Below are positions 30,013-34,566 of a stretch of 37,339 nucleotides of DNA, piece after piece (position 1 is the stretch's first letter; each line of letters opens with the position of its first letter). This stretch comes from an uncultured Armatimonadota bacterium (GTDB lineage: Bacteria > Armatimonadota > Fimbriimonadia > Fimbriimonadales > Fimbriimonadaceae). The translations under genes and the position numbers were made by a program. Under the pieces are notes generated by a model. The model saw only the letters and a program-made list of their open reading frames with translations, made no database searches and was not told the origin of the DNA. The DNA lies in the NCBI GenBank assembly GCA_903899015.1, contig CAIUHP010000069.1, positions 1 through 37,339 of the forward strand, in the 5' to 3' direction.

Positions 30013-30567
30013 ATGATACAACAAGCGCACTTCGATCAAGCCCAGTTTGGCTGTTGCCCCCGTTGCGGAAGCAAAGAGATCTCCTCTATGGCTGAACTTG
30101 GCGAACTTATTTCCACGCCTTCTTATCAATTCTCCTCCGACTTAGCGGAGTGGGTTTCCGCGCCCCAAAGTCCGGATCGCCCCGTGTCGCATAGACGACG
30201 CATTGGCTTGCGAAATAGTATCGCCTTCGGATTGGTATGGGTAATCGTTTTTTCAGTGGCTTACTTTGCACTGACGGGTGCACTTCCATCCCTTCCATTT
30301 TTGATTCTCGTTCTTAGCTCAGCAACAGTCATCGCAGTAAGAACATGGCGAGGTGAGCTCAAGCTTGCAGATCAAGAAGACAACCTTCTCCTTGACACGC
30401 ATGCAGAGCGATACCGATCCTATCTCCACCGGCGCCGAGTTTGGTCACGCCTCAGATACTGTTTCAAATGCGCAATGGTCGTCGATCCAGCAACGCTTCA
30501 AGCAACCTCTTTGTTCGATGTTCACGAACTCGCACATACACGCGTTACCGGGGTGAGCCTCCAATAA
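30013..30567 (+). CDS. Membrane protein with two CxxC zinc knuckles flanking a transmembrane hairpin; first gene of the polysaccharide operon
   Basis: The ATG at 30013 is preceded by AAGGA at a suitable distance, so I prefer it to an upstream ATG at 29956. Of 184 residues, the N-terminus has 'CCPRCGSKE' (Cys15, Cys18) and the C-terminal part 'YCFKCAMVVDP' (Cys150, Cys153). Between them lie two hydrophobic helices (about 72-115) forming a hairpin. Both cysteine pairs should therefore face the same side, probably the cytoplasm, and could build one four-cysteine zinc site. Its stop TAA overlaps the probable ATA start of the BcsB-like gene. I know no characterised homolog. A role in assembling or regulating the synthase is inferred from position. 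Confidence 0.7.
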   Translation: MIQQAHFDQAQFGCCPRCGSKEISSMAELGELISTPSYQFSSDLAEWVSAPQSPDRPVSHRRRIGLRNSIAFGLVWVIVFSVAYFALTGALPSLPFLILVLSSATVIAVRTWRGELKLADQEDNLLLDTHAERYRSYLHRRRVWSRLRYCFKCAMVVDPATLQATSLFDVHELAHTRVTGVSLQ

Positions 30568-31952
30568 AGGGACTTGTAGCGATCTTATTTTTGGGGTCGC
30601 TAACGGCGATCGGATCTGGCGCAGATATTCAGATTCATCCGTTCCTAAGCGATAAACCCGCTCACTCCAACAGTGATCGGTGGAGATACTTCTTTGAATT
30701 GCCGAAAGGTGTTGAAGTTCCGAGAGATGGCGCTTTCACTCTGGACTACGACACCTCATCGGATCTGAACGGAATACGCGAGAGTATGACCATTCTTTTC
30801 AATGGTCAACCGATCGATTCTCGCGTCGTCAAGCCATCGACCACTGAAGCATGGCACTGGGTGATCAATCTCCCAAAGGGATATTTTCGACCAGGATTTA
30901 ACGAACTCACGGTCGTCACTCGTAGCCGAACCATTGAGGGCCCTTGCCTTGAAGAAGATGACATGCGGAACTGGGTTCGGTTTAGAGCCAGTTCTACCCT
31001 TTCGTTTCATCTCGAGGATCTCAGTAGGTTTCCACTTAATTGTTATCCTTATCCATACATTAATTGGATGAATCAGCCCGCCGCTGCTGTTCCGATTGTG
31101 CTTGGACAAAATGCGTCGGATTCTACAATTTCCTCCGCATTGAATCTTGCCGCGAGTTGGGGACGTCGCTTAATTCAAAAGCCGCTCATCATCCAAGTAA
31201 CTCGCAATCCCATTTCAGGGCAAGCGATCCACTTGGGCTTACGAAGCGAACTTGACAACCCAAAGCAAAAGAAGTCCATTGAAGTTCATGAGAGTGGATT
31301 GTGGATCACCGGATTCAATAGCTCGCGCCTTGACTCTGCGGTTCGTACACTCGGTAATCCAGCGACGGCGAGTCAGATGCGAGGTTACGCCGCTGGCGCA
31401 ATCGATTATGTGCCCAAGCCTCAAGACGCAGAAACTCGCCTTGGTATCGCCAGCTTCAACGAGCTTGGATATTCTGCAATCAACCTTGCGGGGATAGGAA
31501 ACCAAAGCACGACGATCGTTCTTAGGCGTCCGATTTCCACTCGACTCGGAAGAGGAGCTCAATTAAGGTTGAGGTTTAGGCATGCCGCGGTCCTTTTAAA
31601 GGCCCGGTCGATGCTCTCTGTAACGATTAACAACCAAGCGGTTGGAAGTGTCGCTCTCACACCCGAAAATGCAAATGAAGGTGAACTCGTTTGTACGGTC
31701 CCCATAAACCTGGTGGACAGTAACGAATGGAGTGTGATGATTACCGCCCACAACGAACTTGGCGCAATTGACTGCGACAAGACTTACGAGGATGTTGCCT
31801 GGACCACCATTCTGGGAGCATCCGAGTTTGAGCTACGAGATGGCATTCTTCCAAGCGTTCCTTATCTCGAAGGATTTCCGTACGAGCGAGACAAAGACGG
31901 CTTGCTACCCCACGATTTAACCGTGAATCTTGGCCCCAATCCAAGCGACTAG
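30564..31952 (+). CDS. bcsB: BcsB-like polysaccharide synthase partner, N-terminal two thirds, ending at an in-frame TAG
   Basis: BcsB proteins are periplasmic, membrane-anchored partners of family-2 glycosyltransferases and guide the emerging polysaccharide. This part has a signal peptide ('KGLVAILFLGSLTAIGSGA'), then alternating carbohydrate-binding and flavodoxin-like domains ('FELPKGVEVPRDGAFTLDY', 'LPKGYFRPGFNELTV', 'VPIVLGQNASDSTISSALNL', 'TVNLGPNPSD'). No ATG, GTG or TTG lies at the signal-peptide start; the natural position is an ATA at 30564 overlapping the previous TAA. Longer in-frame starts (ATG 30441) lie within the upstream gene and would spoil the signal peptide. The frame stops at TAG 31950-31952 in the middle of a conserved domain, and homology resumes in the same frame after it. 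Confidence 0.8.
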   Translation: MKGLVAILFLGSLTAIGSGADIQIHPFLSDKPAHSNSDRWRYFFELPKGVEVPRDGAFTLDYDTSSDLNGIRESMTILFNGQPIDSRVVKPSTTEAWHWVINLPKGYFRPGFNELTVVTRSRTIEGPCLEEDDMRNWVRFRASSTLSFHLEDLSRFPLNCYPYPYINWMNQPAAAVPIVLGQNASDSTISSALNLAASWGRRLIQKPLIIQVTRNPISGQAIHLGLRSELDNPKQKKSIEVHESGLWITGFNSSRLDSAVRTLGNPATASQMRGYAAGAIDYVPKPQDAETRLGIASFNELGYSAINLAGIGNQSTTIVLRRPISTRLGRGAQLRLRFRHAAVLLKARSMLSVTINNQAVGSVALTPENANEGELVCTVPINLVDSNEWSVMITAHNELGAIDCDKTYEDVAWTTILGASEFELRDGILPSVPYLEGFPYERDKDGLLPHDLTVNLGPNPSD

Positions 31953-32006
31953 ATCCTTTCATTCATCGCCGCAAGCGCGGCTCTCGCAGCTCAATCAAAC
32001 CATGGT

Positions 32007-32522
32007 GTGCCGGATTGGAACGCGACGACCAAAGACCTAACCGGAAATGAAGACCTGATGATCGGTCTTATGAACGAAGACAAGCGCTTCAGTCGAATTG
32101 CCGATCTCTTGATGGTGAAACCTTCGAAGTCTGGAGTTCCGATTGTGGACAAGAACGTTCCTATCCTGCCGTCCACACTTGAAGACTCAGTCGTAGTCCA
32201 GGCAATTCACAAAGTGTCTGGCGGAGTTGCTTACGTTGTCTTAGGATCCTCAAATCAAGCCCTTGATCGTTTTGCTGCGTTCCTTGCCGATCCTAAATCT
32301 GAAGGCGCATTACGAGGGCAAGTAGCGGTATTCACCGTTCATGGTGAGCTCTTCACCTTTGACTCGCTGTCACCCACGGATCGTCACAAATTGGAATCAG
32401 ACGAGATGCATCGATATAAGCCACAGATGCAGTACGGGATGACGGCCGTTCTCGTCGTAATCGGCCTTGTCGTTCTCTTTATTGGTAGCAAATTCGTGAA
32501 GAAGAAGAAACCAAAGGGCTAG
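32007..32522 (+). CDS. bcsB: BcsB-like protein, C-terminal part with membrane anchor, separated by an in-frame TAG
   Basis: This 171-codon frame begins at a GTG but is in exactly the same frame as the preceding BcsB-like part. The codons between the TAG and this GTG (31953-32006) also read as BcsB ('ILSFIAASAALAAQSN'). It contains the end of the last flavodoxin-like domain ('GNEDLMIGL', 'SGGVAYVVLGSSNQALDRFA', 'LRGQVAVF') and finishes with a transmembrane helix ('MTAVLVVIGLVVLFIGSKFV') and a lysine-rich tail, which is the usual C-terminal anchor of BcsB. On its own it lacks a signal peptide and carbohydrate-binding domains, so it is most likely the detached C-terminus of one roughly 650-residue protein. 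Confidence 0.75.
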   Translation: MPDWNATTKDLTGNEDLMIGLMNEDKRFSRIADLLMVKPSKSGVPIVDKNVPILPSTLEDSVVVQAIHKVSGGVAYVVLGSSNQALDRFAAFLADPKSEGALRGQVAVFTVHGELFTFDSLSPTDRHKLESDEMHRYKPQMQYGMTAVLVVIGLVVLFIGSKFVKKKKPKG

Positions 32523-32532
32523 GACAAACACT

Positions 32533-34566
32533 TTGAAACTCGACCAATACGATTGGCTGTTGATGCTGCGAGATTTCTTTGCTGGCATTACTTGGATCGT
32601 TGCGGTTGTCTACTTTCTGAGCGGTTCTCAAGACCTCGTTTACGATGTAGGAGCCTATTGGCTAAGGTTCTGGCGACAATTCACCTATCGCAAAAAGCCA
32701 CGACTCACGCTTGAGCGGCTACGGGCGAGAGATCAACAGCGAATTGCGGTGATGGTTCCCGCTTGGAATGAGGGCGAAGTCGTCGCCAGCATGGTCGACA
32801 ACATCATTAAGCGAGTGGAGTATGACAATTACTCGATTTTCGTTGGGACATATCCAAACGATCCCGCGACGCAGGCTTGTGTTGATCGCTTGTCGAAAGA
32901 ATATCCGCAGATCATCAAGGTTGTAACCGCACGACCAGGACCCACCACCAAGGCCGACTGCCTACACAACGTTCTCGCGACGATCCGAACGAAGGAAGAG
33001 GCGGAAGGAATCAACTACGACATCATTCTCATGCACGATGCTGAGGACTGGGTTCACCCCCAGGAGTTCCTGGTCCACAACTATCTCATCCCTCAGATAG
33101 ATGTCGTTCAGCTACCCATTCTTCCGTTTCCCGCGAAGTGGAACAAATGGATTCATTGGATTTATGCCGACGAATTCAGCGAGAACCACATGAAGGATGT
33201 ACCTGTCCGGGAGAAGATCTCTGGATTCGTACCTTATGCAGGAACGGGCACGGGATTTTCTAGAAAAGTCATCGAATTTCTTGCCGATGAATATGGCGGG
33301 CACGTCTTTAACGAATCTTCAATGACGGAGGATTACTCCATGTCAAAGAAAATTCGCGAGGCAGGAATGCGTTCTGTGTTCGTGAATGTCGTTTTAGGGG
33401 ATGACGATTCTCCTTGGTGGAAACCGCTATGTAAGCGGCCAATGTTCATCTCTAACTGGTCGTATTTCCCGATGGACTGGACTCGATCCGTCCGCCAAAA
33501 ATCCCGTTGGATCATTGGTATCTCGCTTCAAGAGTGGGAACAATCAGGTTGGACGGGCAGTTGGCTGATGAAGGAAAACTTCGTCAAAGACCGTAAGGTT
33601 TTCGTCGCAGCCTCGGCATCCTTTTTAGGCTATCTCGTCCTCATTTACAACATACTCTACGTGATGGGGTACTTCCAATTAGTGCCCTTTCAGCTCTTGC
33701 CGACCCTCGTCGCCGGCGAGCCACTGGCCAACCTGGTTTCCTTCTGCACCTTCTTTATGGTCCTACGAATCACCCAGCGCATCACCTGGGTTGGACTTAC
33801 CTACGGACTAGCGCAGGGCCTAATGTCAGTGCCTCGACTGATCGTTGGCAACATTCTGAACGGACTCGCTTCGTTCCGAGCGCTAAAAGTATTTGCTGAT
33901 TCGCGAAGTGGAAAAGCCGCCGTTCGATGGGATAACACGATGCACCTGGAAGGCATCGGCCAAATGGGCGGTGAAGATGTCAAGAAGTCACGGACTTTGG
34001 TTCAAAACGTACCCTTTGAGCAGGTCTTAGCCGGCCTTATTTCCGAGGATCCTAACGAGGTCGTGAGGGCGCTCCGTTTAATTCCGGAGGATGCTTCGCA
34101 AATTGAGAGAGCTGAACTCGTTTCATACATGAGGAATCTTGTGTCCAACAAGGAGCTTCGAGTTCGTGCGGCTCTTGCTCAAACGATCGGTAGGCTAACC
34201 TGGAACGAGCTAACGCCCACCCTTTTTACGGCTCTGAACGATCACGATTCCATCGTTTTATCAAATGCGGCCCGATCCTTATTGGAGCGTCCTCGACTGG
34301 GAGCGTTGCTTGAACAAGCATTCTCCGTTGCCAGGCCGCGGGCTGTCGAAGCGATTATTCACTCGATTGAACAAGATCGGCGGAAACAAAGACAGATCTT
34401 CGAATTACTATCGACAGACCAGTTACTCGTCACGAAAGCCACGATTATCGCGGCATCTCCCGTCTTAAGAAAGCGCTATCAAACGTTTCTGGAATCGCTC
34501 AAACCAGAGTCGGCAACAACGCATTTGAGCGTTCACGTTGACCATCCTCAACCAGACGCATTGTAG
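32533..34566 (+). CDS. NfrB-type family-2 glycosyltransferase with a C-terminal HEAT-like region
   Basis: The 677-residue membrane enzyme has an N-terminal transmembrane helix (about 15-35). Its GT2 domain resembles NfrB: 'VMVPAWNEGEV', 'VGTYPNDPATQA', 'RPGPTTKADCLH', 'HDAED' (Asp169, Asp172), 'TEDY' (Asp267, catalytic base) and 'RQKSRWIIGI' (Gln322, Arg325, Trp326). At least three membrane helices follow at about 355-450. It should polymerise and translocate a polysaccharide using a nucleotide sugar. NfrB proteins usually end in a c-di-GMP-binding MshEN domain. Here residues about 493-650 look like HEAT repeats ('DPNEVVRALRLIP', 'ELRVRAALAQTIGRL', 'DSIVLSNAARSLLER'). The start is TTG, 10 bases after the BcsB stop. 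Confidence 0.85.
   Translation: MKLDQYDWLLMLRDFFAGITWIVAVVYFLSGSQDLVYDVGAYWLRFWRQFTYRKKPRLTLERLRARDQQRIAVMVPAWNEGEVVASMVDNIIKRVEYDNYSIFVGTYPNDPATQACVDRLSKEYPQIIKVVTARPGPTTKADCLHNVLATIRTKEEAEGINYDIILMHDAEDWVHPQEFLVHNYLIPQIDVVQLPILPFPAKWNKWIHWIYADEFSENHMKDVPVREKISGFVPYAGTGTGFSRKVIEFLADEYGGHVFNESSMTEDYSMSKKIREAGMRSVFVNVVLGDDDSPWWKPLCKRPMFISNWSYFPMDWTRSVRQKSRWIIGISLQEWEQSGWTGSWLMKENFVKDRKVFVAASASFLGYLVLIYNILYVMGYFQLVPFQLLPTLVAGEPLANLVSFCTFFMVLRITQRITWVGLTYGLAQGLMSVPRLIVGNILNGLASFRALKVFADSRSGKAAVRWDNTMHLEGIGQMGGEDVKKSRTLVQNVPFEQVLAGLISEDPNEVVRALRLIPEDASQIERAELVSYMRNLVSNKELRVRAALAQTIGRLTWNELTPTLFTALNDHDSIVLSNAARSLLERPRLGALLEQAFSVARPRAVEAIIHSIEQDRRKQRQIFELLSTDQLLVTKATIIAASPVLRKRYQTFLESLKPESATTHLSVHVDHPQPDAL

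Follow-up and report, generated by a model that had tools for sequence, protein, structure and literature searches.

BcsB-like genes and their glycosyltransferase partners

In E. coli, the tail anchor of the cellulose synthase co-polymerase BcsB (structures 6yg8, 9fmt, and 7l2z) sits in a groove of the synthase, and this C-terminal anchor together with BcsA is enough for synthesis in vitro (PMC11470070). Another E. coli protein, NfrB, is a c-di-GMP-activated glycosyltransferase that carries an MshEN c-di-GMP domain (PMC8669469). The locus described here resembles both systems in part. It lies in a stretch of 37,339 nucleotides (the window), which is the whole of contig C69 in a 4.94-Mb, 119-contig genome; among relatives with names, Fimbriimonas and metagenome assemblies of uncultured Armatimonadetes come nearest to it.

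The gene in question matches the Pfam family BcsB (PF03170), to which the part before its internal stop codon aligns with 120 bits against a cut-off of 21; all ten aligned relatives match the same family. It shares with the E. coli BcsB proteins this match, the fold, and a C-terminal membrane helix, but the identity is only about 13%, the window copy has an internal TAG, and in place of BcsA it is paired with an NfrB-like glycosyltransferase that carries HEAT-like repeats. Since no BcsA is encoded beside the gene, and the adjoining family 2 glycosyltransferase has no PilZ match, we call the gene BcsB-like and not a cellulose bcsB proper. The glycosyltransferase aligns over its catalytic part to the NfrB-type models NF008411 (409.7 bits) and NF012033 (445.8 bits), in both cases under the curated cut-offs. 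Unlike NfrB, it is paired with a BcsB-like protein, and it has HEAT-like repeats where NfrB carries the MshEN domain (PMC8669469); neither MshEN nor PilZ was matched in its C-terminal part.

The order of the cassette, a 203-aa gene followed by the BcsB-like and glycosyltransferase genes (Table 1), is conserved in three related genomes (G013, G005, and G004). Two more pairs of BcsB and glycosyltransferase genes are found in the same genome, on contigs C89 and C45, and both of these BcsB genes are open at the site of the stop; contig C89 starts inside its BcsB-like gene. Cassettes of this kind (window 30564-34566; L058-L065) were observed in a few species of the genus, with one to three copies in each genome.

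Table 1. Features of the BcsB-like cassette (positions in the window)
Feature	Position	Strand	Remarks
Upstream cassette gene, 203 aa	29956..30567	+	No Pfam family; kept beside BcsB in relatives
BcsB-like gene before the stop, 462 codons	30564..31949	+	Signal-peptide-like N-terminus; PF03170, E 1.3e-34
In-frame TAG	31950..31952	+	Sense codon in 13/13 homologs
BcsB-like gene after the stop, 189 codons and terminal TAG	31953..32522	+	Rest of second flavodoxin-like domain, C-terminal membrane helix
NfrB-like family 2 glycosyltransferase, intact	32533..34566	+	C-terminal HEAT-like repeats

An in-frame TAG private to one gene

The TAG, in the context ...AAT CCA AGC GAC TAG ATC CTT TCA..., is in frame within the BcsB-like gene. 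With X in its place, the frame extends from 30564 up to a second TAG (32520-32522) and contains this one internal stop; counting from the overlap of start and stop at 30564, the joined protein comprises about 652 amino acids. Both sides align without gaps across the site to uninterrupted relatives; the part after the TAG, which has no Pfam match of its own, aligns over its full length with the C-terminal part of the relatives' BcsB-like proteins at 44-67% identity. A preliminary description of this locus had reported a BcsB-like gene split by a single in-frame TAG, with no base inserted or lost, a frame that continues through the C-terminal membrane anchor, and an intact gene downstream. The read-through frame and the alignments agree with all of this, and the identity between the 677-aa glycosyltransferase and its counterpart in the nearest relative is 81%.

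When 85 genomes of the taxonomic family were searched with a full-length profile, 14 BcsB-like genes came up in eight of them, and an internal stop, the one TAG, occurs only in the window gene. At this site the other 13 genes, two of which are paralogs within the same genome, encode Glu (six), Gly (four), or else Ala, Ser, and Thr. Thus the stop is private to the window gene, and substitution at the site, where Glu is the most frequent residue, is tolerated. Two homologs have the Glu codon GAG, one base away from TAG. The gene of the nearest relative (genome G013, contig C44) is uninterrupted and is 67% identical to the window gene before the stop and 67% after it.

The same comparison bears on the possibility that each half works as a protein of its own, the second being made by re-initiation downstream. 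Possible in-frame starts exist (GTG at 32007; ATG at 32058 and at 32070), but no convincing ribosome-binding site was seen by inspection before the GTG, the downstream piece would have no signal peptide ahead of its periplasmic domain, and the break is predicted to fall inside the second flavodoxin-like domain and not between domains. Nor is any of the 13 homologs split into two proteins here. We regard a functional split as most improbable.

The structural consequences of the stop were assessed on a model of the read-through protein (ten sequences, mean pLDDT 69), in which the CBD-FD-CBD-FD fold and the C-terminal membrane anchor are present. When the model was compared with all of the PDB, BcsB chains matched best: Foldseek aligned it to 9fmt_D with E 4.2e-28 and VIA-align to 6yg8_B with Z 23.1 and an rmsd of 10.1 over 512 residues; the top chains in the latter comparison were all BcsB (Z 12.5-23.1), and the following rows scored 9.6. 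The stop corresponds to residue 463, in a confidently modelled region (pLDDT about 90) of the second flavodoxin-like domain, where it follows the first strand (451-455) and lies at the beginning of the first helix (462-479). The upstream frame had previously been said to end in a flavodoxin-like domain; the model places the stop within the second such domain, which is left incomplete. Neither the rest of this domain nor the membrane helix, located within residues 604-644, would be part of the predicted 462-residue product. As the tail anchor of BcsB suffices with BcsA in E. coli and the same part is lost here, loss of function is to be expected, and the truncated protein would presumably be inactive with its NfrB-like partner.

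Tests of amber recoding

The usage of TAG in the genome is that of a normal terminator. In an 837-kb sample, it ends 117 of 311 long open reading frames (TAA, 120; TGA, 74); it also terminates the BcsB-like gene itself, and the release factor RF1 is encoded (prfA, 474.8 bits, over the curated cut-off of 423). A search for an amber-suppressor tRNA, proposed in the preliminary description, yielded no CTA anticodon, and no TTA or TCA anticodon either, among 44 tRNAs (ARAGORN; 150 of 280 first-look candidates scored); the window holds no tRNA gene. The best match to PylS scored 20.3 bits against a cut-off of 178, and in the control genomes, 13 of 14 had matches, only one of them above the cut-off. 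Insertion of pyrrolysine was rejected on this result. The 116 bases that surround and follow the stop folded no better than shuffled sequences (z +1.08), and none of the 13 homologs conserves a stop at the site. Reassignment of the amber codon was rejected, as TAG is not avoided as a terminator, RF1 is kept, no CTA tRNA was found among the 44, and the stop is not conserved.

Programmed or suppressor-driven readthrough of the TAG would yield full-length BcsB, perhaps as a means of dosage control. The tolerance of the site for five different residues (E, G, A, S, and T) and the equal constraint on the two parts of the gene (see below) speak for such a mechanism, but each of the tests above argues against it, and we consider it very unlikely. 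A leaky amber stop in this lineage, giving a little membrane-anchored BcsB beside a soluble anchorless form, seems scarcely credible. Three readings had been offered in the preliminary description: a recent nonsense mutation, a consensus error, and readthrough or recoding. The first two stand, whereas the third is unsupported, because none of the 44 tRNAs has a CTA anticodon, RF1 is present and no PylS match passes the cut-off, TAG is a normal terminator, and neither a conserved stop nor an unusual RNA fold was detected. These checks form a useful negative result for amber recoding in this genome.

Age and origin of the stop

Since dS relative to the nearest relative is saturated or undefined, selection was judged by amino acid relative rates and by differences at codon positions. 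Changes unique to the window gene or to that of its nearest relative were counted with three outgroups. Before the stop there were 38 versus 39 (outgroup L004), 28 versus 41, and 32 versus 28; after the stop, 13 versus 16 (L004), 13 versus 16, and 13 versus 10. In both parts of the gene the differences concentrate at third codon positions. The relative rates thus gave no sign of faster evolution on either side of the stop, in line with the earlier statement that the rest of the gene shows no decay; the lesion is therefore so young that it has not yet left a trace, or it is not real, or it is read through. A young nonsense lesion fits the undecayed 3' part, which would fit equally well with a consensus error or with a low level of readthrough protein.

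We conclude that the TAG is probably an ordinary recent nonsense mutation in a gene for a BcsB-like periplasmic co-polymerase, a helper of an exopolysaccharide synthase, in a bacterium of the Fimbriimonas type. If the assembled DNA is correct at this codon, translation would end after about 462 residues; the product would keep the two carbohydrate-binding domains together with the first of the flavodoxin-like domains, whereas most of the second and the C-terminal membrane anchor would be lost. The partner glycosyltransferase gene is intact. The loss is probably tolerated, perhaps through redundancy, since two more BcsB/glycosyltransferase cassettes exist in the genome.

An artefact of the consensus or of a strain mixture, where the true or majority allele is a sense codon and the assembly took an error or the base of a minority strain, is the main rival, a possible but clearly less probable explanation. 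The genome is a draft, the nearest relatives are metagenome-assembled, and the gene has neither another lesion nor relaxed selection. Moreover, no internal stop was found in 21 MFS and 74 ABC-transporter domain matches of the genome, so that internal stops are rare. The same 95 clean domains, however, reveal no general problem with errors, and a single isolated base error is uncommon in an otherwise clean assembly.

Taken as a recent nonsense mutation, the gene shares with ordinary young bacterial pseudogenes one private in-frame stop, intact flanks, and paralogs, and nothing sets it apart from them save that its base call is taken from the assembly. The interruption is an ordinary event. In annotation it should be recorded as an interrupted gene, neither as two genes nor as evidence of a changed code.

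Other in-frame stops in the genome

Interruptions were scanned for in 837 kb of the genome. The codon-usage scan and the hexamer scan with tight limits miss the BcsB-like TAG, which a relaxed coding scan recovers among 15 in-frame junctions. Twelve of these, with a start codon no more than 12 codons away, look like neighboring genes. The three junctions without a nearby start are the BcsB-like TAG and two TAA codons.

One of the TAA codons interrupts an OprB-porin remnant (L078:8100-8699, corresponding to C43:248100-248699 on the minus strand), in which the N-terminal half is missing. The sequences on the two sides of the codon align to neighboring stretches of the OprB profile, and the genome has no other OprB match. 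Nonsense-broken genes therefore occur in this genome, though at a low rate, and they are not specific to amber codons. The other TAA (L092:9302-9304, C45:129302) follows a 542-codon peptidase M48 frame and precedes 82 in-frame codons with a strong coding signal, the first start being 24 codons on.

Start of the BcsB-like gene

None of ATG, GTG, and TTG occurs at the natural start of the BcsB-like gene (window 30564-30567). The start overlaps the stop codon of the upstream gene as ATAA, after the Shine-Dalgarno-like GGGGTGAG, and the same overlap is seen in four relatives (L058, L059, L060, and L061) as ATAA, CTGA, CTGA, and TTGA. In two further loci (L117 and L118), no ATG, GTG, or TTG lies ahead of the signal-peptide region. 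A conserved start that is coupled and does not use AUG (but AUA, CUG, or UUG) is likely for the BcsB-like gene, and it may hold more interest than the internal TAG.
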